Below, piece after piece: positions 4,626 through 30,652 of a DNA stretch of 32,699 bases. The number at the start of each line of letters is the position of its first letter. Position 1 is the stretch's first letter. The notes below the pieces were generated by a model. The model had not been told where the DNA came from. It saw only the letters and a list, made by a program, of their open reading frames with translations, and did not search any database. Position numbers and translations under genes: made by a program. Origin of the DNA: Alphaproteobacteria bacterium (lineage in GTDB: Bacteria > Pseudomonadota > Alphaproteobacteria > SMXQ01); assembly GCA_029863585.1 (NCBI GenBank), contig JAOTVC010000017.1:1-32699 (forward strand). Direction: 5' to 3'.

Positions 4626-6074
4626 TCAGATGTCCCACTTCTTGCGCATCTTGGCGCGGTAGGCGTCGGAGAACACGTTGACGGCGGGGAAGTCTGCGCG
4701 CCAGCGGTAGGGGCGGCAGGCGTCGATCAGCACCCGGTCCATGGTGTAGCCGTGGGGCGAGCGGTCGGCGGGGGCGATGGCCGGGTCGGCGGGCGAGGTC
4801 CAGACGTCGCGGATCAGGTCGAGCCCGTCGCGCGGGTTGCAGCGGGTGGCGACGGCCCAGATCACGTCCTCGGCCTTGGAGATGTCGATGTCGTCATCGA
4901 CCACGATGACGAACTTGCCGCCGTAGCAACCGGCCCGGGCCGAGGCCGCGGCCATGGCGGTCTGCTTGGCGTGCCCGGCATAGCGCTGCTTGATCGAGAC
5001 CACAGTGAAGGGGCCCGACTGCCCGCCGTAGACGAAGCCCCAGACCCCGGTGACGTCGGGGATGCCTGCGGCCTCCATCTGGTCCCACAACTGGGCCGCG
5101 CCGAGCGGCACGGAAACGTAATTGTTGGGCGGTTTCAGGGGCGGCACGCCGAGGATGATGGGATCGTCGCGGTGATAGACCGCCTCGACATGCATCAGCG
5201 GCACCTCGCCCACGGTGGTGTCGGCGAAATAGCCCGGCCATTCGCCGAACGGGCCTTCCTTGGGCAGATCGGTCTCATCGAGCGGCGGCACCACGCCCTC
5301 GATGACGATCTCCGCCGTCGCCGGGATGGGCAGGCCGTAAAGCGGGCTTTCCACCACCTCTACGGCTGAATCCTGCAGCCAGCCCGCGACCTCGTATTCC
5401 CGTTGATCGGGCGCGAGCGGCATCTGGGAGACCATGAAGATCGGCACCGCCTGGCCGAAGCCGATGGCGACGGGGCAGGGCTCGCCCTTGGCGTGGTACT
5501 TGTCCATGGCGATGCGGCCGTGCTTGCCCTTGTTCATCTTGACGCTGATCTTATCCTTGCCCTGGACCATGCAGCGGTAGGTGCCGATGTTGACGGCGCC
5601 GGATTCCGGGTCCCGGGTGATCACCGCGCTGCCGGTGCCGAGATACCGCCCGCCGTCATGTTCGTGCCACACCGGGGCGGGGAAGGATTCAAGGTCGAGG
5701 GCGTCGCCCTCGATGCGGTTTTCGAACACCGGGCCGTCGGCCACGGTCACCGGCGGGATGGGGCGAAGCGTCTTGATGCGCTTGCGCCAGGCGTCCAGCA
5801 GCGCCACGCCGGCAAGGCCCTTGTCCAGGCCCAGCACCCGGGCGGTCCGCGCATGGGTGCGCAACACATTGGAGAAGACGCGAAAGCCCTTCGGATAGCC
5901 GGCAATCTCGTCGAACAGCAGCGCCGGGCCTTCGTCCTCGCCCAGGATCTCGGTGATGGCGCCGATCTCGAGCTTCCAGTCGGCGCCGGCGATCTCGCGC
6001 AGGTCGCCGGACTCCCTCAGATCCTCGATAAAGGCGCGCAGGTCGTTGGCGCGGTTTGACTGCGGTGTGGTCAT
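4626..6074 (-). CDS. UbiD-family prenylated-FMN-dependent (de)carboxylase
   Basis: A 482-residue UbiD-family enzyme. The family uses prenylated FMN to decarboxylate (or carboxylate) aromatic, heteroaromatic or alpha,beta-unsaturated acids. The catalytic Glu pair is in EGPFGEWPG (Glu273 and Glu278, the E-x4-E spacing of Fdc1/UbiD), and the partner Arg is probably Arg167 in NIGTYR. PPLKPPNNY and the C-terminal DDDIDISKAEDVIWAVATR are also family hallmarks. Length matches UbiD, AroY and ShdC (about 480-500). A UbiX flavin prenyltransferase, needed to make the cofactor, is not in this window. Neighbours (VOC protein, and further on a gallate-dioxygenase type enzyme) suggest use on aromatic acids rather than ubiquinone synthesis, but this is inference. 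Confidence 0.9.
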   Translation of the reverse strand: MTTPQSNRANDLRAFIEDLRESGDLREIAGADWKLEIGAITEILGEDEGPALLFDEIAGYPKGFRVFSNVLRTHARTARVLGLDKGLAGVALLDAWRKRIKTLRPIPPVTVADGPVFENRIEGDALDLESFPAPVWHEHDGGRYLGTGSAVITRDPESGAVNIGTYRCMVQGKDKISVKMNKGKHGRIAMDKYHAKGEPCPVAIGFGQAVPIFMVSQMPLAPDQREYEVAGWLQDSAVEVVESPLYGLPIPATAEIVIEGVVPPLDETDLPKEGPFGEWPGYFADTTVGEVPLMHVEAVYHRDDPIILGVPPLKPPNNYVSVPLGAAQLWDQMEAAGIPDVTGVWGFVYGGQSGPFTVVSIKQRYAGHAKQTAMAAASARAGCYGGKFVIVVDDDIDISKAEDVIWAVATRCNPRDGLDLIRDVWTSPADPAIAPADRSPHGYTMDRVLIDACRPYRWRADFPAVNVFSDAYRAKMRKKWDI

Positions 6075-8387: not shown

Positions 8388-9881
8388 TCAGCGGCTGGCG
8401 GGGAAGACCAGGGATTTGATCACCACCGGCACGGCGCCGGAAGAGGGGATCAGGTTGCCGATATCGATGAAGTCGAACTCGTTCAGTTCGATCCCGTCGA
8501 TCGAGATGCAGGCGGCTTCCACCCCCATTTCTTCCTTCAGGTGCAGGCCCAGGAGGCCGCCGACGTCGCCGTCGTTGACCAGGATGATGGGATGGTCCCG
8601 GGCCGTGAAGTCGCGCAGGCCCTCGCGGATGCCGGTGCAGAAATCGTGCAGCCGCTTGAATGTGGCGGAACCGCCCCAATGGAAGGCGACGGCCACCGCC
8701 TGGTCGGCATGGGCGAGGTCGAGCCGGTTGAGCGCGACGTCGATCGCCTGATGAAGGGCACCGGGCTCGATCTCCTCGCCGGTCAGGTCGATGTCGGGCG
8801 CGATCACCGGCACGTTGCGCACCGGCACGGTGTCTTCCGGGTCGATGAAGATGGTGCTGCCCGAGACCTGGATAGTGTATTGCGAGGCGCCGATCACGGT
8901 CGCCCGGATGGTGGCCCTGGGCTCTTCGATGGTGAGGCCCAAGGGATCGATGCGGGCGCGGACCGCCTTGGCGATAAGCGGGCCGAGATCCCCGAACGTG
9001 GTGTCTGCCCGGCCGTAGACGAATTCCGACACCCCGCCGGAGAAGATCAGGGCGCTGACCTCCGTCTTGTCCGACAGGGGCGGCAGGCGAAGGAGGCCCT
9101 CTGTCTCTGGGCTGATGGGGCTGAGCCCCGCCGCCTCGACGATGCGCATGGCCATGCGGTCGGCGATCTTCTCCAGCTGTTCCGCGCTCGGCTTGTCGCC
9201 GAGGGCCAGCGTGACGCCGACCTCTTCGGCGTATGCGGCCCCGGTGGGCTCCAGCCGTTCGATGGCGCCGTTCTGGTCGGTGACGATCAGCCGGGCGCCG
9301 CCCTCCACCGCCGTCACTTCCGCCACATGGCCGCCGATGCAGCGGGCGAATTTGGTGGTGCCGCCGCCGATATCGATATTGAGGACGGTGCCCTCGACCT
9401 CGTCGGAGCGCGCCGCCGCGCCGGAACCGTGCGCCGCCATGGTCGCTTCCAGGCCGTCGCCCGCCGACACGGCCACGAACTTGCCGGCCTCGTCGGCGAA
9501 CAGTTCGCCGATGGTGCGCGCGTTGCGCCGGAGCACGGCGACGCCGGTCAGGATCAGGGCCCCGGTATCGATGTCGTCATGGGTGAGGCCCGCCTCCTCA
9601 TAGGTCTTCTTGATGAAGGCGGCCAGCCCATCGGAATCGATCACGTTTTCCCGGTCCGCATTCTCCACGTAGGGCGTGAAATGGATCGGCGATTCGTGGA
9701 CCAGCTCGCGCTTGGTCACGACGTAGCGTGCGTTGCGCTGCTCCAACGTCAGTTTCGAAAACGCGAGATGCGAGGTCGACGAGCCGATATCGACACCGAC
9801 GCTGACCAACTCGATCTCGTCCTCGCCCAGGATGTTGCGTTCGGCGTTCGAGAACTGAGCGCCTACATCGTCCGCTGTCAT
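8388..9881 (-). CDS. eutA: EutA-like ethanolamine ammonia-lyase reactivase (ASKHA ATPase)
   Basis: A 497-residue ASKHA-fold ATPase of the EutA family. EutA exchanges damaged adenosylcobalamin on ethanolamine ammonia-lyase in an ATP-dependent way. The phosphate-1 motif is SVGVDIGSSTSHLAFSK (residues 27-43), phosphate-2 is LNIDIGGGTTKFARC (167-181), and an adenosine-type motif is ALIFSGGVSEFVYGRA. SGAVPVVIKSLVFP at the C-terminus is also EutA-like. Length is slightly over the enteric form (about 467). It starts 15 bp after the bicupin gene stops, so the two are probably co-transcribed. No eutB or eutC is in the window, so either its client lies elsewhere or it serves another B12 or radical enzyme. 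The family call is firm; the physiological client is unknown. Confidence 0.82.
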   Translation of the reverse strand: MTADDVGAQFSNAERNILGEDEIELVSVGVDIGSSTSHLAFSKLTLEQRNARYVVTKRELVHESPIHFTPYVENADRENVIDSDGLAAFIKKTYEEAGLTHDDIDTGALILTGVAVLRRNARTIGELFADEAGKFVAVSAGDGLEATMAAHGSGAAARSDEVEGTVLNIDIGGGTTKFARCIGGHVAEVTAVEGGARLIVTDQNGAIERLEPTGAAYAEEVGVTLALGDKPSAEQLEKIADRMAMRIVEAAGLSPISPETEGLLRLPPLSDKTEVSALIFSGGVSEFVYGRADTTFGDLGPLIAKAVRARIDPLGLTIEEPRATIRATVIGASQYTIQVSGSTIFIDPEDTVPVRNVPVIAPDIDLTGEEIEPGALHQAIDVALNRLDLAHADQAVAVAFHWGGSATFKRLHDFCTGIREGLRDFTARDHPIILVNDGDVGGLLGLHLKEEMGVEAACISIDGIELNEFDFIDIGNLIPSSGAVPVVIKSLVFPASR

Positions 9882-13263: not shown

Positions 13264-14523
13264 TCAGTCCTCTTCCTTGCCGGCGACCGAATACTGCATG
13301 TTGACGTTGCGCGTCTTCTGGAACTCTTCCAGGGTCTCGCCGCGCATCTGGGCATAGACGTCCGGGTTGGAGAGGCCCAGGACCGCCGCCATTTTCTCGA
13401 TGGAAAAGAAAATCACGCCGTAGTGGATGAGGCCGATGAAGTCCCGCGCCTCCAGCAGCTTGCGCTCCTCGGCGCTCAAGCCGAATTCTTCGTAGAGCGC
13501 CTCGGGCTCTTCAAGGAAACGGCGGCGGTGCGCAGGATTCACCAACCGGTGGAGGAAATCGTTCAAGCGATAGGCTTTATGGGCCCTCTCCAGGGTGAAG
13601 GGATGGGTGCCCTCGATCTCCTCGATCCCGGCGAGCTGGCGGCCAATCAGGTCGCGCTGAGCCTGAGCCGCCTGGGGCTGCGGTTCGGCGAGATTTTCGT
13701 ATATGACCGTGGCGATGGTGGTCATCGACGGCAGCGTCATGTCACGATGGACGCAGCGCACGGTATTGGACAACGCGCCGCGCATGATCAGCCAGGTGAT
13801 GACTTCCGCCCCTTCCAAGCCGCCGCGCTTGGCGTATTCGGCATGGGTGATCCGGGTCAGCGCCTCGGGGTCATTTTCCAGCAGGTCCAGGAACTCGGCG
13901 TCCCAATCGAGGTTGTTGAAACCGCAGCGTTCGCCGTGAACCTGGTGGGACAGGCCGCCGGTGGCGGCGATGGCGACACTGAGGTCTTCCGGGTAGCTCA
14001 GAATCGCGCGACCCAGCGCCTGGCCCAACCGGTAGCACCGGTTGGCGCTGGGGATGGGGAACTGCAGCACCCCCACCTGGAACGGGATGATCGCCTTGTT
14101 CCATGCGGCCCCCCGGTCGGTCATCATCGACAGTGGCGAGAACAGCCCGTGATCGATGGGCCGCTTCTGGAAGAACGAGATGTCGAACTCATCGGCGAAC
14201 AGCGACTGGCCGATATGGCGCGCCAAGCCCATATGACCCGCCACCGGCGGGTAATCGCGCGGGCCCCCGCCCTCGTCCGCTGTGCGGTAGTCGCCGTCGA
14301 CCCCCAGCACGAAGGGTGAATAATGATCGAGGAAGAACGACGTGACGTGATCGTTGTAGATCACGAACAGGACGTCGGGGTCATTGGCCTTGAGCCAGTC
14401 GGTGACCGGCGCGAACACCTTGAACACAGCCGCCCAGGCGGGGTCGTCTGCCGCCTTGTTGTCCTTGGCGAACCCGATGGTGGGCGAGTGGGAGGCCCCA
14501 AGCCCCGCGATGATCTTCGCCAT
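13264..14523 (-). CDS. Gallate dioxygenase-type extradiol enzyme (LigB-LigA fusion)
   Basis: A 419-residue class III extradiol dioxygenase in which the catalytic LigB-like domain (about 1-280) is followed by the small LigA-like domain (about 310-405). This fused order and length are those of gallate dioxygenases GalA and DesB (about 420). Fe(II) ligands His12 (GLGASHSPTIGF), His59 (YNDHVTSFF) and Glu240 (GLEGAEVITW) and the catalytic His193 (GGLSHQVHGE) are all present. The C-terminus MQYSVAG also matches GalA-like proteins. It opens gallate or protocatechuate-type rings to 4-oxalomesaconate or an analogue. AGGA lies eight bases before the ATG; the 26 in-frame codons upstream are not typical. 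The dihydroxyphthalate-decarboxylase-like gene converges on it. Gallate versus protocatechuate versus another catechol cannot be decided by eye. Confidence 0.87.
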   Translation of the reverse strand: MAKIIAGLGASHSPTIGFAKDNKAADDPAWAAVFKVFAPVTDWLKANDPDVLFVIYNDHVTSFFLDHYSPFVLGVDGDYRTADEGGGPRDYPPVAGHMGLARHIGQSLFADEFDISFFQKRPIDHGLFSPLSMMTDRGAAWNKAIIPFQVGVLQFPIPSANRCYRLGQALGRAILSYPEDLSVAIAATGGLSHQVHGERCGFNNLDWDAEFLDLLENDPEALTRITHAEYAKRGGLEGAEVITWLIMRGALSNTVRCVHRDMTLPSMTTIATVIYENLAEPQPQAAQAQRDLIGRQLAGIEEIEGTHPFTLERAHKAYRLNDFLHRLVNPAHRRRFLEEPEALYEEFGLSAEERKLLEARDFIGLIHYGVIFFSIEKMAAVLGLSNPDVYAQMRGETLEEFQKTRNVNMQYSVAGKEED

Positions 14524-14857
14524 GATCCCAATCCTCGTGTGACCGGCCAAACGATGAAAGCTCGGCCGGGACCGGCGCCGGCCGCCGAGACCGGCCGGCA
14601 CTTCGTCGATCCCTTGGCCCGCATCTTATCAGGTGCCGCCGCTGCGGCTAGTGCCGAGAGCATCCATGCCCACGCGCGCCCACCCCGGCAACGCCGATTA
14701 CACGGGCCCAGCGGGGCCCGGCGCAAGCGCTCGTCGCGCCAAAAATGCGTGAGTATTTCGTCTGCAATCTGGATATAGTTTCGCCCGATCAAGACACGGA
14801 TGTCCCCAACCTCGGGATTGCCGGTTTTCAACGACGACAGGATAGGATTGACCAACG
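14524..14857. other. Divergent promoter region between the dioxygenase and the TctC-type gene
   Basis: No gene is visible. The region contains GC-rich inverted repeats (for example GGGCCC-AGC-GGGGCCC near 14704-14719) and a possible TATAGT -10 element at 14774-14779 for the TctC-type gene. It should carry promoters for both divergent genes. Confidence 0.4.
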
Positions 14858-22435: not shown

Positions 22436-23746
22436 CTATGGGAGACAGGTCCTGAAGCCGGCGAAGACGTCGCGCCGGTGGGCTTCGAAATAGTTCCGAT
22501 AGGTGCCGTGGATCATTCGCCCGCGGGTCGTCCAGGCGCCGCCGCGCAGCACCTTGGTGTCGCCGAACAGCATGGCCGAATATTCCTTATAGGCGTCTGC
22601 GGCGAAACCGGGGAAGGCGTTGAACGTGTCCGCCGTCCATTCCCAAACATTGCCGAGCATCTGGCGGCAGCCAAACGCACTGTCGCCGGCGGCCAACGCC
22701 GCCACGTCGACCGGTCCCAGGGCCCGGCCGTCCAAATTGGCGCGGCTCGGGTCGGGCGGCGCCGCGCCCCACGGGTAGCGTCTCTTGAACGGCGACAAGG
22801 TGCCGTCGGCGGCCGGCTCGCCAAGGGCCGCCGCTTCCCATTCCGCTTCCGTCGGCAGCCTCAACCCGGCCCAACGGCAATAGGCCGCGGCTTCGAACCA
22901 ATTGACATGAATGACCGGCTCGTCGGGCGGCAGCGGCAATGTACGGTCGAACCGCCGTACCAGCCAGTCGCCAGGCCCGTTGCGCTGCCAGTACACCGGA
23001 TGCTCCGCGCCGGCCTTCCGGCGCCAGGTCCAGCCGTCGGCGGTCCACAACGCTTCCCGGCCATAGCCGCCATCGTCGACGAAATCCTGGAACGCCCGGT
23101 TGGTGACCGGCGCCTTGGCGATTGCGAACGGCTCCAGGGCCACCGGATGGGCCCATTTTTCATTGTCGAACAGGAACGGCGCGTCCCGAGGCGCCCCCAA
23201 CTGGAACGTCCCCCCCGGCACCTCGGCCCATCCCGGGTGAGCCCCCCTCGCCCGCTCGGCTGCGACATCGGTGGCAACGGCCAAGACAGGCGTTGGATAG
23301 GAAAGCGTCTGGCGGGCCCAAAGGAAGGCTTCGGTGTGCATATCTTCATGGAAGATGCCGAATTGATAGATGAAGCTGTCCTGCTCCGTCGCCATGCCGC
23401 CCTCGAGGCGTTCGGCCAGGCGGTCGTAAACAGCCTGCAGGTAGGACAGCGTCTCGGCCCGGGTGAGCAGCGGCAGGTCCCACCTGAGGTCATGGTCGAT
23501 GGCGATGGAATCGTAAAGTTTGTCGGCACTCTCGCCGATTACGGACTCGTGACCGTAAAGCTGGCGCAGGATGAAGTATTCGTAAAAATAGGCGACATGG
23601 GCGATTTCCCAGCGCATCGGATTGACGGTGGGTAGTTTGGGCCCCATGAGCTGGGCGTCGTCCAGGTCGCGGACCAGTTCCAAGGTCCGGTTCCGGGCGT
23701 CTTGCATGTTATCGATCAAACGTGCGGTACTGACAGGCGCGGTCAC
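22436..23746 (-). CDS. senA: Selenoneine synthase SenA-like (EgtB family, DinB + FGE domains)
   Basis: A 436-residue two-domain protein of the EgtB family: an N-terminal DinB-like four-helix bundle (about 5-155) carrying the three iron-binding His (His50 in WEIAHVAYF, His133 and His137 in GIFHEDMHTEAF) and a C-terminal formylglycine-generating-enzyme-like domain (about 175-436: RLPTEAEWEAAA, MLGNVWEWTADTF, VLRGGAWTTRGR). EgtB joins cysteine-type sulfur to hercynine; SenA is the relative that joins a selenosugar to hercynine. I call SenA rather than EgtB because the next gene is a SenB-type protein and the third is selD; no egtA/egtD is near. The start is uncertain: GTG 23746 or TTG 23758, both without a clear ribosome-binding site. 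It diverges from senB by only 15-27 bp. Confidence 0.82.
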   Translation of the reverse strand: MTAPVSTARLIDNMQDARNRTLELVRDLDDAQLMGPKLPTVNPMRWEIAHVAYFYEYFILRQLYGHESVIGESADKLYDSIAIDHDLRWDLPLLTRAETLSYLQAVYDRLAERLEGGMATEQDSFIYQFGIFHEDMHTEAFLWARQTLSYPTPVLAVATDVAAERARGAHPGWAEVPGGTFQLGAPRDAPFLFDNEKWAHPVALEPFAIAKAPVTNRAFQDFVDDGGYGREALWTADGWTWRRKAGAEHPVYWQRNGPGDWLVRRFDRTLPLPPDEPVIHVNWFEAAAYCRWAGLRLPTEAEWEAAALGEPAADGTLSPFKRRYPWGAAPPDPSRANLDGRALGPVDVAALAAGDSAFGCRQMLGNVWEWTADTFNAFPGFAADAYKEYSAMLFGDTKVLRGGAWTTRGRMIHGTYRNYFEAHRRDVFAGFRTCLP

Positions 23747-23773
23747 GGGACAATCCAAGGTCGGAGAAAGCGG

Positions 23774-24730
23774 GTGAAGATTAGCCTAATCACGCCAGCG
23801 GACAAACTGTCCAAAAGCGGCAACCGGACAACCGCGCTTCGCTGGGCCCGAATGCTGCGCGAGGCGGGCCACCGCGTGCGGATCGGAATGGACTATGGTG
23901 GCGAGGACGCGAAACTGATGATTGCCATTCACGCCTGGCGCAGCGCCGACGCCATAGGACGCTACCGGGCCCGCTTTCCGGGCGGGCCGTTGGTGGTCGG
24001 TCTCGGCGGGACCGACGTTAACACGTTCCTGAAAACCCATCCGGAAACGACGCTCCGCTCCATGGAGATGGCGGACGCCCTGATTTGCCTGCACAACCTC
24101 ATCGGCGAGGCCCTGCCGGCGGCGCTCCGAAAGAAGCTCCATGTGGTCCACCAATCTGCCTTGCCCCTGCCCGGGCCGCGGCATCCGTCCAAACGGAACT
24201 TCGATGTCTGCGTCATCGGTCATCTGCGCGATGAGAAGGATCCCTTCCGGACGGCCCTGGCCGCCAGGCGCCTGCCGCGCCAATCAAAACTCCGGGTCTT
24301 TCACCTGGGCAAGGCCCACACCTCCGAATTCGCCAGCCGTGCCAAAGCCGAGATGAAGATCAACCCGCGCTACCGGTGGCTCGGTGAAGTGCCGGGGTGG
24401 CGGGTTCGGCGGGAGCTGGCCAAGACCCGGGCCATGGTGATCAGTTCAAATCAGGAGGGCGGCGCCAACGTGGTGTCCGAAGCCATCGTCGCCGGCGTGC
24501 CGGTGATTGCCAGTGACATTGCCGGAAACGTCGGCCTTTTGGGGCGCGACTATCCCGGCACCTACCCGGTTCGAGATGAAGCCGCGCTGGCGCATCTGCT
24601 GGACCGTGCGGAAACCGAGCCCGCATTCCTCGAACGCCTGGAGCGTCATGTGCGGAAGCTGCAACCGCTGTTTCGACCCGCCCACGAAAAGGCCGCCCTG
24701 AAACGGATTGTCGGTTTGGTCACGCGATGA
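23774..24730 (+). CDS. senB: Selenosugar synthase SenB-like glycosyltransferase
   Basis: A 318-residue GT-B-fold glycosyltransferase. SenB makes a selenosugar from selenophosphate and a UDP-sugar in selenoneine biosynthesis. Features that match, from memory, the SenB family: N-terminal SLITPADKLSKSGNRTTALR (split here from WARMLREAGHRV), AIHAWRSADAI, LVVGLGGTDV, then the second Rossmann domain with CVIGHLRDEKDPF and a nucleotide-sugar site SNQEGGANVVSEAIVAGVPV. The start is GTG 23774, with GGAG seven bases before it; the frame extends further left only through the 5' end of the opposite gene. Its 3' end overlaps the convergent selD fusion gene by 11 bp. The pairing with an EgtB-like gene and selD makes the assignment much stronger than similarity alone. 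Confidence 0.83.
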   Translation: MKISLITPADKLSKSGNRTTALRWARMLREAGHRVRIGMDYGGEDAKLMIAIHAWRSADAIGRYRARFPGGPLVVGLGGTDVNTFLKTHPETTLRSMEMADALICLHNLIGEALPAALRKKLHVVHQSALPLPGPRHPSKRNFDVCVIGHLRDEKDPFRTALAARRLPRQSKLRVFHLGKAHTSEFASRAKAEMKINPRYRWLGEVPGWRVRRELAKTRAMVISSNQEGGANVVSEAIVAGVPVIASDIAGNVGLLGRDYPGTYPVRDEAALAHLLDRAETEPAFLERLERHVRKLQPLFRPAHEKAALKRIVGLVTR

Positions 24731-26987
24731 GAGTGACGGGTTCCAGATGCTCGCTTTCCGCCATGACGCGGCCGATGACGGCTGCTTCCGCATAGCCGAG
24801 ATCACGAAGCTCTCGCAAGCAGGGCTCCGCCTGTTCGGCGGGAAGGCTGGCCAGCAAGCCGCCCGATGTCTGGGGATCGAAAACCAGCGGATAGCGTTCA
24901 TGTTTCTGGGCTTCGCTCAAGTTTCGTATCGCCCGGCGCAACCGAACGTTCGCCGGTTGCAGCGAACTGAGGATCCCGAGGCGCACCGTTTCCTGGGCGC
25001 CGTCCAATATCGGCAACTTTTCGAGGTCGACCTCTACGTCCACGTTCGAGGCCTTGGTCATCTCCACCAAATGACCCAATAGCCCAAATCCGGTGATATC
25101 CGTGCAGGCGCTGGCGCCATGATTGAAGAGGCATCGGGCCGCGTCCCGGTTCGACTGGACCATGCAGCTCAGCGCTCCCTCGATCCACCTTCCCTTGGCT
25201 TTCTGCTGCATGTCGGCGGCGAACAGCGTGCCGGTGCCAAGCGGCTTGGTGAGAATCAATACCTCGCCCTCTGTCATGCCGCCCTTGCGCAATATGTGTT
25301 CTTTGTCGGCCAAGCCATTGATCGAAAATCCCAATGCCAGTTCCGGTCCTTCGCTGGTATGGCCGCCCACCAGGGTCGCGCCGGCCGCGTTGAGGACCTT
25401 CATGGCGCCGGTCATCATTTCACGGAGGGTCGTTTCGACCTTCGCCTCCAGGCCGTAGGGAACGGTTGCGATGGCGAGCGCCGTCTGAGGCTCGGCGCCC
25501 ATGGCGAAGATGTCGCTCAGGGCGTGGTTCGCGGCAACTTGCCCGAACACGTAGGCGTCATCGATGAAGGCCCGGAAATAGTCAACCGTATAGACGGCGA
25601 CCTTGCCGTCGGGGATCTGAACGACGGCCGCGTCGTCCGGCGCGTGCAGGCCGACCAGAACATCATCGTTGCCGAGCGGCTCCAAACCGGCCAGGGCCTG
25701 GGACAGCACATTGGCCCCCACCTTGGCGCCGCAGCCGCCGCAACGCATGGCGATGGCCGAGATGTCTTTGAGCGTGGCCTGGTCGGCAAGGCCGGGGTCC
25801 AACGGCGTCGCCTCCTCGGCGGCCATCTCGGGCAATTCATTGAACTTTCTCATGAAGCGCCGATCGATCCAGTCCTTCCACCTCCAGACCCAGCGGCCTT
25901 CGGCCGACCATCCCCATTTGGCCGCTACGGCGCGCTTGTCACCGGCGCTGATGAGAACCAGGAAGGCGCGTTGCGGAACAAAGGGCCGGGCCGGCCGGCC
26001 GACCAGGACACGGCGCAGGTTCGCGGTCAGCGGCGGTCCCTGGCGGACCGCGAAGACGCCGGCCTTTGGACGCGGGTGATTGACGACCGCGGCAATGTCC
26101 CCGGCCGCGAAGACGTCCCCATGGGAGGTTGATTGCAGCGTGTCACCGACCTGGATGAACCCGTTCTCATCCACGTCGAGGCCGGACTCGCGAAGCCAGG
26201 GCGGCGCTCCGGCCGCCGTGACCCAAAGGATCTGGTCCAGTTCGATGGTCTTGCCGCCGGCGATGGTGATTGCGCCGTGCGTCACTTTTTCCGCCGGGGC
26301 GCCGGTGTGGACGCGCACCCCCCGCGCCGCGAAGAGGCGTTCGAAGCGGCGGCGCACGGCGGCGCTGACATTGGGCAGGATGGTCTCTGACTTGGAGATC
26401 AGATGGAACTCCAACCGGTCCGTATCCTGGCCCCGTTCCGCAAGGAGATTGCCGAGCCGATGATGCGCGGCCAACAGCAGTTCGGTGCCGCCCGCGCCGG
26501 CTCCGACGACGCCGATGCGGTGCGGGCCCGGGCTGTCCAGCACGCGGTCCAGAAAACGTTGCCAACGATCGACAAAATTGTTGATCGGCTTGACCGGGGT
26601 AGCGAATTCCTCGGCCCCGGGAATGCCGTTGAAACTGGGCGTCGAACCGATATTGATCGAAAGGAGGTCATAGGGAACCGGAGGGCGCCCCTTGCAGACG
26701 ACCTGCTTGGCCTCGAGGTCGAGCATGGTCGCCTCGTCGTGGTACAGGCGCGCGCCGGCGAACTGGCAAAGCGGGCGCAGGTCGATATGCACCTCGTCGA
26801 AATCGTAGTGGCCGGCGACGTAACCCGGCAGCATGCCCGAATAGGGCGTGTGCACGTCGCGTGCGATCACCGTCAGGCGGACCCCGGACAGCGGCTTCAT
26901 GCCGAACTTCTTGAGCAGGATCACGTGGCTGTGTCCGCCGCCGACGAGGACGAGGTCTTTGACGATGGCGTTTTGGCTGGATTTCAT
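24720..26987 (-). CDS. selD: NDH-2-like FAD oxidoreductase fused to selenophosphate synthase SelD
   Basis: A 755-residue fusion. Residues 1-385 are a pyridine-nucleotide-disulfide oxidoreductase related to type II NADH dehydrogenases: FAD motif LVGGGHSHV (14-22), NAD(P) motif GVVGAGAGGTEL (159-170) and the second FAD motif DVFAAGDIA (291-299). Residues about 405-755 are selenide,water dikinase, which makes selenophosphate from selenide and ATP. The catalytic pair is Cys419 and Lys422 in CGGCGAKVG (a Cys, not selenocysteine), with TVDYFRAFIDDAYVFGQVAANH (split after 20) and GGHTSEGPELALGFSI following. It fills the SenC/SelD role in selenoneine synthesis and could also feed tRNA or protein selenation. 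It lies 22 bp after the permease gene of an ABC transporter, same strand, so it is probably in that operon. Confidence 0.92.
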   Translation of the reverse strand: MKSSQNAIVKDLVLVGGGHSHVILLKKFGMKPLSGVRLTVIARDVHTPYSGMLPGYVAGHYDFDEVHIDLRPLCQFAGARLYHDEATMLDLEAKQVVCKGRPPVPYDLLSINIGSTPSFNGIPGAEEFATPVKPINNFVDRWQRFLDRVLDSPGPHRIGVVGAGAGGTELLLAAHHRLGNLLAERGQDTDRLEFHLISKSETILPNVSAAVRRRFERLFAARGVRVHTGAPAEKVTHGAITIAGGKTIELDQILWVTAAGAPPWLRESGLDVDENGFIQVGDTLQSTSHGDVFAAGDIAAVVNHPRPKAGVFAVRQGPPLTANLRRVLVGRPARPFVPQRAFLVLISAGDKRAVAAKWGWSAEGRWVWRWKDWIDRRFMRKFNELPEMAAEEATPLDPGLADQATLKDISAIAMRCGGCGAKVGANVLSQALAGLEPLGNDDVLVGLHAPDDAAVVQIPDGKVAVYTVDYFRAFIDDAYVFGQVAANHALSDIFAMGAEPQTALAIATVPYGLEAKVETTLREMMTGAMKVLNAAGATLVGGHTSEGPELALGFSINGLADKEHILRKGGMTEGEVLILTKPLGTGTLFAADMQQKAKGRWIEGALSCMVQSNRDAARCLFNHGASACTDITGFGLLGHLVEMTKASNVDVEVDLEKLPILDGAQETVRLGILSSLQPANVRLRRAIRNLSEAQKHERYPLVFDPQTSGGLLASLPAEQAEPCLRELRDLGYAEAAVIGRVMAESEHLEPVTLIA

Positions 26988-27009
26988 TCTGGCTACTCTC
27001 GATTCGCCT

Positions 27010-28527
27010 TTATGCCCGTCCGGCCTGGGTGCTCAGGTGCAGGCGGCTCCGAATGCGGCGGGACAAAGCATCGATTCCCATGTTTAGAATCGCCGTGACC
27101 ACGATCAAAATCATTGCCCGGTCGAGGCGAATATCGGATAGCGCGCTGTCTATGTAGAATCCTAGGGTGGCAATTCCAAGGATCCCCAGGATCGCCGTCT
27201 CCCGCATGATGACCTCCCAACGATAGAACAGGAACGCCAGGAACTGTCCGTAAATACGGGGCACGATCTCGAAACCGTAAAGATTGAGACCGCGAGGGCT
27301 GTCGGGCCGCAGCCGTACCTCGTCACTGAAGCGTCCCACGAGATGGCCGATAATGGCGCCGTTGTGAAGTGACAGGGCGACAATGGCCGGCAGCATGGAC
27401 GGCCCCCAGAGCTGCAGGAAGATGTAGGCGAGGATGAACTCCGGCGTCGAGCGCAGGACCACCAGAAACACATGTCCCACGGTCCGCCCCGCCGGGCCGA
27501 AGAATTTTTGCGAAACCAGCGGGAAAAGGACGAGGGCAAGGACGCCCGTGGCGACCAGGGCGATCTGAGTCAGCAGCAATGTCCCGATCATGCCGAGCAG
27601 CGCCTGGTCCACCAGCATGGTCCAGGCCCAGTCACCCATGTTGCTCCAGGTCTGGCCGTCGAGAAGGCCGCCCTGGCGCAACGGCGAAGGCACGATATCC
27701 ACGGTCAGGAACCTGACGATGTTGCCCAATTCTATGGCCTGGCCGCCGCCCAACAGGAACGGGGCAGCAAGCAGATAGAACCCTACGAGTTTCGGCCGCA
27801 TCCAATAGCGCAAGGTGGCGATGAGCACGTAGAAAATGATCAGCAAGGCCGCGGCTTCGGAATAGTTTCCTTCGCTGAAGGCAGTCTCCAGATGGAATCC
27901 CAGGGTCGGCAAACCGACGAATCCCAAAACGGTGGCGGAGCGCAGCCCGCATTCGAATCGGTAGCTGGTGTAGGTCTTGAGATGCACCCAGACATCCGGT
28001 AGGCGGGCGAAGAAAAAGGCGGAGATGATGCCGGTCCCCTTCGGCAAGCTCCGGAGCGCCGGCAATTCCGCTTCCTCCAGCGTTTCCGCATAAACCTTGG
28101 CGCAGATTCCGGCGTAGGGAATGGCGATGGCCAGCACGCCGGTAAGCGGCGACAGCCCCAGAATCTGCAGGAAAATCAGGGCCCAGAACAATTCGTGGAT
28201 GGCCCGGGCGGATGCGCAAACCCAACGAACGGGCCCCAGATGGAACACCTGGGACAGCAGGAACCCCCCGACGGCGCCCAGCGCCACCCCTGATAACGCA
28301 AAGGCTATGGTTTGCACGATGACCAGGCCAATTCCGGAGACCGCGGCGAAATCAGGCGTCAAAGCCCCCCAGGCCATGCGCTTCATTTCCGACCAGGGGT
28401 CGAGAGTGGTCACGGAAATATCCGCGAACAAGAGGCAGATGACCGCCACGGCGAGAAATCCCAGGCTCGTCTTCACAGCCGACGAATAGCGAGGGGCCCT
28501 CGGCGCGGATAGGATTGAAACCGCCAT
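27010..28527 (-). CDS. PhnE-like ABC transporter permease, two fused copies
   Basis: A 505-residue inner-membrane protein made of two tandem PhnE-type permease halves (about 1-255 and 260-505), each with several membrane helices and a cytoplasmic loop in the EAA position (EEAELPALRSLPKGTG in the first, GFEIVPRIYGQFLAFLFYR in the second). A single chain thus replaces the usual permease dimer. In the phosphonate family PhnE pairs with PhnC and PhnD, which are the two genes upstream here. The start is ATG 28527, nine bases after GGGA and 5 bp past the ATPase stop; TTG 28536 would overlap that stop (TTGA). selD follows 22 bp later. Selenium oxyanion or a related anion is the likely cargo by context; phosphonate or phosphite is the alternative. 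Confidence 0.82.
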   Translation of the reverse strand: MAVSILSAPRAPRYSSAVKTSLGFLAVAVICLLFADISVTTLDPWSEMKRMAWGALTPDFAAVSGIGLVIVQTIAFALSGVALGAVGGFLLSQVFHLGPVRWVCASARAIHELFWALIFLQILGLSPLTGVLAIAIPYAGICAKVYAETLEEAELPALRSLPKGTGIISAFFFARLPDVWVHLKTYTSYRFECGLRSATVLGFVGLPTLGFHLETAFSEGNYSEAAALLIIFYVLIATLRYWMRPKLVGFYLLAAPFLLGGGQAIELGNIVRFLTVDIVPSPLRQGGLLDGQTWSNMGDWAWTMLVDQALLGMIGTLLLTQIALVATGVLALVLFPLVSQKFFGPAGRTVGHVFLVVLRSTPEFILAYIFLQLWGPSMLPAIVALSLHNGAIIGHLVGRFSDEVRLRPDSPRGLNLYGFEIVPRIYGQFLAFLFYRWEVIMRETAILGILGIATLGFYIDSALSDIRLDRAMILIVVTAILNMGIDALSRRIRSRLHLSTQAGRA

Positions 28528-28532
28528 CGCGC

Positions 28533-29186
28533 TCAATCCCGATAGAGAAAATCGAGATCGGACCGTGTCAGGTCCCGGGCCGCCGCATCCAACGCGATGC
28601 CGCCGTCCTTGATGCCGATGATCCGAGTCGAGAATTCAAGCGCCAGATCCACGTCGTGCATGGCCAGGATGACGGTTTCGAAGGTTTCCCTGAGCGCCTC
28701 GAGGACAACGCGGGACTGGTGGTTGTCGGTGGCGGAAACCGGTTCATCGCCGAGCACCGCGTCACCGCCCTGGAATATCGCCCGGCATATGGCCGTCCGT
28801 TGTTGCTGTCCACCCGACAGTTCGCCGGCCCGCTCAAACAGTTTGTCGCCAAGCCCCAGGCGTTGGACGATGGGATAGATACGCTCCACTTCCTTGCGGC
28901 GCGGCCAAACCAGGTTCATGAGATTGTAGGCGGCGGAATGCCGGTGCAGGCTGCCCATATAGACATTGTGGAAGACGCTTAAGCTGCGGACCAGGCCTGG
29001 GTCCTGGGGGATCAGGGCGGCGTTGCCGTCGTAGCGCCTTTGCAGGACGGAGAGCAGGGTCGATTTACCGGCCCCGCTCTCCCCGACGAATGCCACCCGC
29101 TCACCGGCGGCGACGGTGACGGAGATACCGCGAAGTACGGGATCTCCATTGTAACCAAGGTCTTCGTTATCGAGCTGGAAAGCCAC
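28533..29186 (-). CDS. PhnC-like ABC transporter ATP-binding protein
   Basis: A 217-residue ABC ATPase, compact for the family. Walker A is GESGAGKSTL (35-44), the Q-loop is LIPQDPGLV, the signature is LSGGQQQR (123-130), Walker B is VLGDEP (144-149), and the switch His177 is in LAMHDVDLALEF. All catalytic residues are present. The start is GTG 29186, only 2 bp after the stop of the binding-protein gene, so the two are translationally coupled. It powers the permease encoded just downstream. The D-loop reads SATD rather than the common SALD. Confidence 0.88.
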   Translation of the reverse strand: MAFQLDNEDLGYNGDPVLRGISVTVAAGERVAFVGESGAGKSTLLSVLQRRYDGNAALIPQDPGLVRSLSVFHNVYMGSLHRHSAAYNLMNLVWPRRKEVERIYPIVQRLGLGDKLFERAGELSGGQQQRTAICRAIFQGGDAVLGDEPVSATDNHQSRVVLEALRETFETVILAMHDVDLALEFSTRIIGIKDGGIALDAAARDLTRSDLDFLYRD

Positions 29187-29188
29187 CT

Positions 29189-30064
29189 TCAGTCAATCAG
29201 CTTGATCTTTTTGGCCACGTCCACGATGGGTTGGTAGTCGGAATTCGATGCCGGGATGAAGCTTTTCCTGGGAAAAGAGGCCAGGAGATCGGGATCCTTC
29301 ATGCCCAGCAGGGCGGCCTTGACCTTCGCTTTGAACCCGGCTTTCCACCGCTTATCGACATCGCCGCGGATGGTCCACTGATAATCCGGGTATGGCGGCG
29401 TTTTCCAGATGATGGAAACCTTCGCCGGATCGATCTTCCCGGCCTTCAATTCGTTTTGCCAGACCGTGAAATTGACCGCCCCCACCTGGTAGGCGCCGGA
29501 TTGGACGAGGGCGATGGTCTTGGAATGATTGCCGCTGAAACCGACCTTTGTGAACACCTTGCCCGGCGCCATATTGAAAGCTTTACGAATGTGGTGCTCC
29601 GGCATCAGACGGCCCGACGTCGACCCTTTGGAACCGAAGGTGAAAGTCTTGCCCGCGATGCCTTTCGGGAATGTGTCCGACGCTTTCAGCCCGGTGCTTG
29701 CATGGGCGATGAAATATGTCACGAAGGCCTGATCCTCGTATCCCTGGGCTATGGCTTGTGAGCCGGGAACAAGATCTCGGGCGCGCACCCCGGAAAGGCC
29801 CCCGAACCAAGCCAGCTGAACTTGGTTGTTGCGGAACGCCGTGACCGCCGCCGCATAGGACTTGACCGGGATGTACTTGGTCTCGACACCGAGCGCCCTG
29901 GACAGGTAAACGGCGACCTTGTCGAAGCGTTGGCGCAGGCGCGCCGAGTCCTCGTCGGGTATGGCGGTGAAGACGAATGTATCGGCGCTGGCCTGCTTCG
30001 CGGTGCCGCCGAAGAGCAGCATTACGGCGGCCGAACACAACAGAAGTTTCTTAATGGACATCAT
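29189..30064 (-). CDS. PhnD-like periplasmic binding protein, candidate selenium oxyanion transporter
   Basis: A 291-residue binding protein with a Sec signal peptide (cleavage after ASA, about residue 27). It has the PhnD-family pattern: FTAIPDEDSARLRQRFD, VTAFRNNQVQLAWFGGLSGV, AIAQGYEDQAFVTYFIAH, FTFGSKGSTSGRLMPEHHI, then VGFSGNHSKTIALVQSGAYQVG. From memory, a branch of this family sitting next to selD has been catalogued as putative selenate ABC transporter binding proteins; I cannot verify that here. The start is ATG 30064 with GGGAG five bases upstream (an in-frame GTG lies at 30088). It heads the operon with the ATPase, permease and NDH-SelD genes. A phosphonate-type ligand remains possible. 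Confidence 0.85.
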   Translation of the reverse strand: MMSIKKLLLCSAAVMLLFGGTAKQASADTFVFTAIPDEDSARLRQRFDKVAVYLSRALGVETKYIPVKSYAAAVTAFRNNQVQLAWFGGLSGVRARDLVPGSQAIAQGYEDQAFVTYFIAHASTGLKASDTFPKGIAGKTFTFGSKGSTSGRLMPEHHIRKAFNMAPGKVFTKVGFSGNHSKTIALVQSGAYQVGAVNFTVWQNELKAGKIDPAKVSIIWKTPPYPDYQWTIRGDVDKRWKAGFKAKVKAALLGMKDPDLLASFPRKSFIPASNSDYQPIVDVAKKIKLID

Positions 30065-30652
30065 GGCGTCTCCCTGAATGATGGTCACGGCAAAGCGTGC
30101 GACGGAGTCTTTTCGGAAAAACGGGGCGTCAGGCGTTCAACCTAATACGCGGCCAAGTGGCAGTGGCAGAGTAACTGCTCGTGGCCTGGCTGATCAATAG
30201 CTCGCGGCCCGTAGCCGGATGAAAAAGCGAGGACCGACGGGCTTCGGTCGTACAGATCGGCGATGAAGGCCGTCACCAATGCCGCACATCACGACTGCGG
30301 TCGCTGGCGGACCAAGAGGGACGAAACCTGAAACCAGCCGCGCCGACGACAACGCGACGTGGTTCGCCCTTACACATGAACATCAACTGGATGTCCTTTT
30401 TTACCCAAAGCGGGCACACGCTGTCGCGTAGACTCGGGTGGGGTTCCCTCCTAATATCCACGCTCACAGAAAGTGTCTGGGTAGGCGCCAAACGCGCCAC
30501 GGCCGAAGGACGCGTTCAATGCAGGCTTGCGGCGATCATTGCCGCCGACACGGCCGCCTCTGGTCTTTGCAGATGGGCGGAAAAGCGGCCACGCATGCGT
30601 TCAGAAGGAAACGAAAACCCCGGGCCCACGCAATCCTAGAGGGAGGTTTCCC
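30065..30652. other. Gene-free region between divergent transporter operon and second TctC-type gene
   Basis: This 588-bp region should carry the promoter of the selenium transporter operon (leftwards) and that of the TctC-type gene (rightwards). I see no intact gene. It does contain a likely remnant of an adenylate cyclase N-terminus (about 30512-30600) and, upstream of it, an imperfect inverted repeat around 30391-30418 (ATGTCC ... AAAGCGGGCAC). Confidence 0.5.
30512..30600 (+). pseudogene. Possible remnant of class III adenylate cyclase N-terminus
   Basis: In one frame the translation reads QCRLAAIIAADTAA, close to the RRLAAILAADVAGYSRLMG opening of many alphaproteobacterial class III adenylate/guanylate cyclases. 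A +1 frame change then gives WSLQMGGKAATHAF, which fits the YSRLMG... part. After that no similarity is visible, and no catalytic domain follows. It is therefore a short decayed fragment with a frameshift, not a gene. The call rests on about 20 residues. Confidence 0.4.

Follow-up and report, generated by a model that had tools for sequence, protein, structure and literature searches.

The DNA examined here is a 32,699-nucleotide contig (C357; hereafter the window) of an alphaproteobacterial metagenome-assembled genome of 4.09 Mb in 383 contigs, with completeness 100 and contamination 7%. Six adjacent open reading frames fill positions 22436–30064. They encode an ATP-binding cassette (ABC) transporter with its periplasmic substrate-binding protein (SBP), a selenophosphate synthetase (SelD) fused to an oxidoreductase, and the selenoneine enzymes SenB and SenA. 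The transporter, its ties to selenium genes, and its probable cargo are the subject of this report.

29189..30064, minus strand: SBP, periplasmic, TIGR04553/PhnD1-like; TIGR04553 377 bits; 44% identity to Synechococcus PhnD1 (7S6G)
28533..29186, minus strand: ABC transporter ATPase, PhnC-like; PF00005; TIGR02315 152 bits, under the 266 cut-off
27010..28536, minus strand: ABC permease, 508 amino acids, two fused PhnE-type domains; TIGR01097 in two stretches, 196 bits, cut-off 216.7
24720..26987, minus strand: pyridine-nucleotide-disulfide-type oxidoreductase fused to SelD, 755 amino acids; TIGR03169 and TIGR00476
23774..24730, plus strand: SenB, selenosugar synthase; TIGR04348 395 bits
23747..23773, no strand: very short senA/senB divergent intergenic region, flanked by the start codons of both genes
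22436..23746, minus strand: SenA, selenoneine synthase, long form, EgtB/OvsA superfamily; NF041186 484 bits

The SBP, ATPase, permease, and SelD-fusion genes follow one another on the minus strand with gaps of +2, −4, and +22 nucleotides, an operon-like spacing. The senB gene converges on selD with an 11-nucleotide overlap and diverges from senA, the two starts lying 15–28 nucleotides apart. The SBP likely starts at the ATG at 30064 (AGGGAG upstream), with a GTG at 30088 possible; SenA starts at a GTG at 23746 or a TTG at 23758. Divergence of senA and senB recurs in 21/21 relatives having both, most with starts no more than tens of nucleotides apart. With starts so close, either the promoter of each gene is located within its neighbor or the start codons are wrongly assigned. 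Within the window, an Rfam scan returned no match, a promoter scan stayed close to the shuffled expectation, and a terminator scan ran modestly above it.

This arrangement—the transporter and SelD fusion converging on senB, with senA divergent—is repeated in many independent contigs from many marine Alphaproteobacteria, among them G113, a same-family relative whose genome has 1% contamination, and is therefore neither chance nor a binning artifact of a 7%-contaminated genome. A sequence-only reading of the window had named the six genes and proposed that they take selenium from the medium to selenoneine. Profile searches bear out all six identities, over curated cut-offs where such exist; two further parts of that reading, the novelty of the SelD fusion and a transporter serving selenoneine alone, did not survive.

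The fusion protein scores 511 bits against TIGR03169 (Nterm_to_SelD; cut-off 310) and 313 against TIGR00476 (SelD; cut-off 125), and does not reach TIGR04369 (fusion_not_SelD). A catalytic-type motif, GGCGAKV, lies at amino acid 417, and the catalytic Cys and Lys are kept. We rejected its novelty because SelD with a ~320-amino-acid NADH-dehydrogenase-like extension was reported from Prochlorococcus and Synechococcus in 2005, in picocyanobacteria that also carry SelU (PMC1273633). Roughly 40 of 59 SelD matches in our class survey fall in open frames of at least 700 amino acids; in this class, SelD usually takes the fused form. As a separate observation, in five genomes (G187, G281, G091, G123, and G227) a stand-alone SelD gene contains a single in-frame TGA and probably encodes a selenocysteine form of SelD; G187 and G281 carry a Cys-type SelD fusion as well.

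SenB exceeds its cut-off of 300, and its PDB matches are solely SenB structures (8k5u, 8jjq, 8jjn, and 8fbx), which upholds the earlier assignment of this glycosyltransferase. The synthase passes the SenA model NF041186 (cut-off 420) and falls under the EgtB model TIGR03440 (351 bits, cut-off 360). Its PDB ranking places OvsA at the top (324 bits), then EgtB 4x8b (274) and Variovorax paradoxus SenA (204), so that identity as SenA or OvsA had to be tested. In a maximum-likelihood tree, a selenium clade comprising window-type SenA, Variovorax SenA, and OvsA splits from sulfur-type EgtB with 100/99 support, and the identity as a sulfur-type EgtB was rejected on that basis. Selenium-clade members, window SenA included, have Met in the HxxQH iron-ligand motif where EgtB has Gln. 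The source genome's separate EgtB (L179:5357-6700, TIGR03440 560 bits) falls inside the EgtB clade. As an aside, that sulfur-type gene lies within a heat-shock cluster, hrcA-grpE-egtB-dnaK-dnaJ (L179:3409-10142, G000:C373), whose neighbors were recognized by eye.

An OvsA-type synthase, with ovoselenol or another selenohistidine as its product instead of selenoneine, is highly improbable in spite of the PDB ranking. Passing the SenA model is insufficient on its own, since the true OvsA at locus L112 (L112:18068-19507) also passes NF041186 with 425 bits; the SenA of a complete sen cluster (L189:5450-6601) reaches only 379, and the cut-off of 420 gives no clean separation of SenA from OvsA. The tree is more discriminating: OvsA pairs only with the L112 protein, whereas the window synthase groups with other alphaproteobacterial SenA. 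No OvsM-type methyltransferase exceeds its cut-off among 14 genomes surveyed, the source genome included, whereas L112 has one beside its OvsA. Hercynine supply points the same way. The window contains no EgtD, and the prediction that hercynine comes from elsewhere is matched by an EgtD gene at C6:4517-5419 (374 bits, cut-off 290.9). EgtD is present in 14/14 surveyed genomes carrying the SBP or SenA, and it adjoins SenA in L066, L072, L073, L099, and L140, the first three being close relatives. The tree, the missing OvsM, and the EgtD neighbors together ruled out the ovoselenol reading; selenoneine is the product expected of the window synthase from its placement and gene context.

We next consider the transporter. 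Its SBP exceeds the TIGR04553 cut-off of 250 and fails the phosphonate model TIGR03431 (143 vs. 261 bits). Because the permease and ATPase fall under the phosphonate cut-offs, they are best called PhnE- and PhnC-like rather than phosphonate subunits proper. TIGR04553 carries the NCBIfam name "putative selenate ABC transporter SBP," a hypothetical equivalog named by prediction, with no basis given.

Genomes carrying this SBP family differ markedly in SelD content. In a phylum sample, over-cut-off SBPs occurred in 34/398 genomes, and SelD was present in 32/34 of these vs. 97/364 of the rest (Fisher P = 3.7e-15; the Fisher tests assume independent genomes, an assumption that related genomes violate, so P-values are optimistic). 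A class sample gave 10/11 vs. 47/278 (P = 4e-7), and the sole class SBP genome lacking SelD (G007) has SBP, ATPase, permease, selA, and selB on one contig. Class genomes with only sub-cut-off PhnD-like proteins carry SelD in 23/77 cases, which makes the signal specific to the TIGR04553 family and not general to PhnD-like proteins. Of 32 genomes having both SBP and SelD, 14 have the two no more than 12 kb apart, and SenA co-occurs with the SBP (P = 1.2e-9).

Gene neighborhoods lead to the same link. We fetched 80 relatives by similarity to the SBP and clustered neighboring open reading frames without prior labels. Permease, ATPase, and SBP occur together in 72/80; after the ABC genes, the most frequent neighbors were the SelD fusion (37), SenB (33), SenA (23), a crotonase (11), SelU (10), and stand-alone SelD (10), with EgtD (6) lower down. 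These relatives are the nearest ones, and the counts are biased toward the window's own arrangement, a bias from which the genome samples are free. Of the 46 full-flank loci, those with 6 kb or more of sequence to either side, 36 include a selenium gene and 22 include sen genes.

Across lineages the SBP neighbors SelD, SenA/SenB, SelU, SelA/SelB, EgtD, and once OvsA/OvsM. In a complete 1.9 Mb genome with an SBP of only 33% identity, the order is senA-selD-SBP-ATPase-permease-permease-egtD, senB is convergent, and the SenA is short (L189:5450-13069). Elsewhere the SBP gene is divergent from selD-selU (L188) or, on a Paracoccus plasmid (L145), adjoins formate dehydrogenase-N, selA, and selB. At L112:16923-20308, the gene after an OvsA (61% to PDB 8UX5) encodes an OvsM-type methyltransferase (TIGR04345 328 bits, cut-off 170), and both share one locus with the SBP transporter, SenB, and the SelD fusion. 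An ArsP-like permease, recognized by eye, stands just upstream of this ovoselenol-type cluster. Genome G124 (93% complete) has the SBP, SelD fusion, SenA, and SenB, and neither SelA nor SelU, which leaves selenoneine as the one identified selenium sink of that genome. As a negative control, carbon–phosphorus (C–P) lyase genes were found near 1/95 loci; at that single locus (L143), PhnH and PhnI lie within the SBP flank, next to SelU.

Context therefore gives good support to the selenium link of the transporter. Its dedication to selenoneine, the other half of what the sequence-only reading had claimed for it, does not hold, because the source genome has selA and selB and the transporter elsewhere stands beside selU, selA/selB, or ovsA.

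The solved structures nearest to the window SBP are those of picocyanobacterial PhnD1 (7S6G and 5LQ5/5LQ8; 41–44% identity), which themselves score over the TIGR04553 cut-off (331 and 297 bits). The ligand contacts of 7S6G are Y44, S124-T125-S126, H156, D203, and Y204 (PMC10284923). All are kept in the window SBP and in 120/120 members checked across the class and phylum samples and the set of 80 relatives, apart from Asn for Asp203 in six; picocyanobacteria are known to carry this swap as well. True PtxB proteins are set apart by five substitutions in the pocket region (W60Y, G63P, G127S, N174S/A, and D203Q); the window SBP has W, G, G, and D where PtxB has Y60, P63, S127, and Q203. In the SBP tree, PhnD1 is nested inside the family, and a selenium-linked outer clade that includes L188, L189, L174, and L175 branches earlier. 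Placing PhnD1 outside all selenium-linked members was rejected (approximately unbiased test, P = 0.005), a result softer than its number given long branches and a group chosen in the knowledge of an earlier tree.

PhnD1 binds phosphite with dissociation constants of 0.05–4 μM, phosphate with 7–182 μM, and methylphosphonate with 17–109 μM; it is core to 97/97 picocyanobacterial genomes examined and is not induced by phosphorus starvation, and picocyanobacteria without ptxD cannot use phosphite (PMC10284923). The authors regard phosphite binding as fortuitous and propose a role in phosphate uptake (PMC10284923); an earlier paper called the in vivo function of PhnD1 unknown (PMC5700983). The main text of PMC10284923 names no selenium compound. 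A search of viral contigs for PhnD1 returned none.

The much higher affinity of PhnD1 for phosphite than for phosphate or methylphosphonate, combined with the identical pocket, indicates a preference for three-oxygen anions, which we count in favor of a selenite-type cargo. Both phosphite and selenite are small XO3 anions of pyramidal shape, and a selenite binder would be expected, on chemical grounds, to have just such a pocket, one that prefers XO3 carrying a minimal fourth substituent.

Taken together, the gene identities, the conserved order, the statistical and physical linkage, and the conserved oxyanion pocket lead us to predict, with a probability of about 0.75, that the transporter is a selenium importer feeding SelD and the sen enzymes. 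A small selenium oxyanion would be captured by the periplasmic SBP and imported by the PhnC/PhnE-like transporter at the expense of ATP. We infer selenite as the most likely ligand, an oxidation state that the pocket argument favors somewhat over the alternatives. Inside the cell, the selenium would be reduced to selenide by cellular thiols and perhaps also by the fusion's oxidoreductase half. The remaining steps follow what the literature reports for homologues: The SelD half would make selenophosphate, SenB a selenosugar, and SenA would insert selenium into hercynine—supplied by the EgtD encoded elsewhere—forming the C–Se bond of selenoneine. The same selenophosphate would also supply selenocysteine synthesis through the SelA/SelB of the source genome.

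A phosphorus cargo is suggested by PhnD1, whose score makes it a member of the same family, which shares identical pocket residues with the window SBP and which binds phosphite, phosphate, and methylphosphonate (PMC10284923). A transporter importing these compounds as described for PhnD1, next to selenium genes that are incidental or that reflect a need for phosphate, is nonetheless very unlikely. Such a transporter would leave unexplained the SelD linkage in two genome samples and with several different selenium gene sets, the near absence of C–P lyase genes from the loci, and a PhnD1 operon that phosphorus starvation does not induce, in a group whose strains without ptxD cannot use phosphite. 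The failed phosphonate model and the five PtxB differences argue further against a phosphonate or phosphite importer. A selenate importer, for which the NCBIfam name speaks, is also quite unlikely. PhnD1 favors three-oxygen phosphite over four-oxygen phosphate about 10-fold or more, selenate resembles sulfate and tetrahedral phosphate, and no selenate reductase was recognized in the locus; we stopped relying on the name once PhnD1 proved to be a TIGR04553 member. Somewhat less easily set aside, though still unlikely, is a transporter for selenocysteine or general selenium supply only, with senA and senB nearby merely as part of a selenium-gene island and not functionally coupled to it. The selA and selB genes of the source genome fit this picture, as do other lineages in which the transporter has selA/selB or selU, and no sen genes, beside it; G124, in which SelA and SelU are missing, and the frequency of sen genes at full-flank loci speak for coupling.

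Several observations weigh against a selenium importer. No selenium gene lies within the flank at 10/46 full-flank loci, and some members sit on plasmids without a selenium gene nearby (L146–L148). SelD is missing from two of the 34 SBP genomes. One of these has a completeness of 78%; in the other, G413, the SBP (L185, G413:C1) carries the pocket changes N174D, D203N, and Y204T, no ATPase or permease was recognized beside it, and the lineage seems to be drifting away from SBP function. PhnD1 relatives do bind phosphite, and its P–H bond meets the capping tyrosine (PMC5700983). Selenite would present a lone pair at that tyrosine in place of P–H, and its fit is not certain. Sulfite, moreover, has the shape of selenite.

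Outside the locus, the window encodes a gallate dioxygenase (13264–14601, 699 bits), an EutA-like protein (8388–9881), and a UbiD-type decarboxylase (4626–6074); this stretch is catabolic and shows no obvious connection to selenium.

The sen pathway and the SelD fusion were already known, and NCBIfam had already suspected a selenium ligand; what is new is how strongly and how widely the transporter is linked to selenium genes, together with its connection to PhnD1. Our literature search found TIGR04553 named nowhere; the phrase "selenate ABC transporter" occurs in only three papers, and an earlier remark on a sen-adjacent transporter is possible. No dedicated selenium transporter has been established according to PMC11097638, PMC13188914, and PMC9312934, and the SBP family is a strong, testable candidate for this missing importer. 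The transporter would connect uptake to four SelD-dependent end products: selenoneine, ovoselenol, selenouridine, and selenocysteine. We give even odds to the wider proposal that the entire TIGR04553/PhnD1 clade, PhnD1C1E1 of Prochlorococcus and Synechococcus included, performs selenite-specific ABC import and is the first dedicated selenium transporter. PhnD1C1E1, at present described as phosphite-binding or as a constitutive phosphate transporter, would then supply the picocyanobacterial oxidoreductase–SelD fusion and SelU. This would offer one answer to the puzzle of why a core transporter should bind phosphite tightly when most of its hosts are unable to use it.

Among known systems, PhnD1C1E1 (5LQ5, 5LQ8, and 7S6G; PMC10284923 and PMC5700983) shares the family by score and the contact residues, and its hosts carry the SelD fusion and SelU (PMC1273633); it differs in being described as a phosphite/phosphate transporter, with no link to sen genes drawn in PMC10284923 or PMC5700983. 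The TIGR04553 family of putative selenate proteins, which also holds picocyanobacterial PhnD1, includes the window SBP, although the evidence here favors selenite over selenate. PtxB and E. coli-type PhnD have the same Pfam family and STS/His oxyanion pocket; PtxB departs from the window SBP in its pocket-region residues, and the window SBP departs from the phosphonate proteins in failing TIGR03431 and in having no C–P lyase genes nearby. The ovoselenol genes OvsA/OvsM (8UX5) encode a homologous synthase, and in L112 they are joined by SenB, the SelD fusion, and this same transporter, whereas the window synthase belongs to another subclade and is without OvsM. A further known system is the SenA/SenB/SenC selenoneine pathway (Kayrouz 2022, summarized in PMC9814287): SenA and SenB exceed the curated cut-offs here, SelD (the counterpart of SenC) is adjacent, and EgtD is in the genome. 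Unlike that system, the window has SelD fused to an oxidoreductase, senA divergent from senB, a long-form SenA that keeps ~50 amino acids missing from V. paradoxus SenA, and, attached to the pathway genes, an apparent four-gene transporter/SelD operon.

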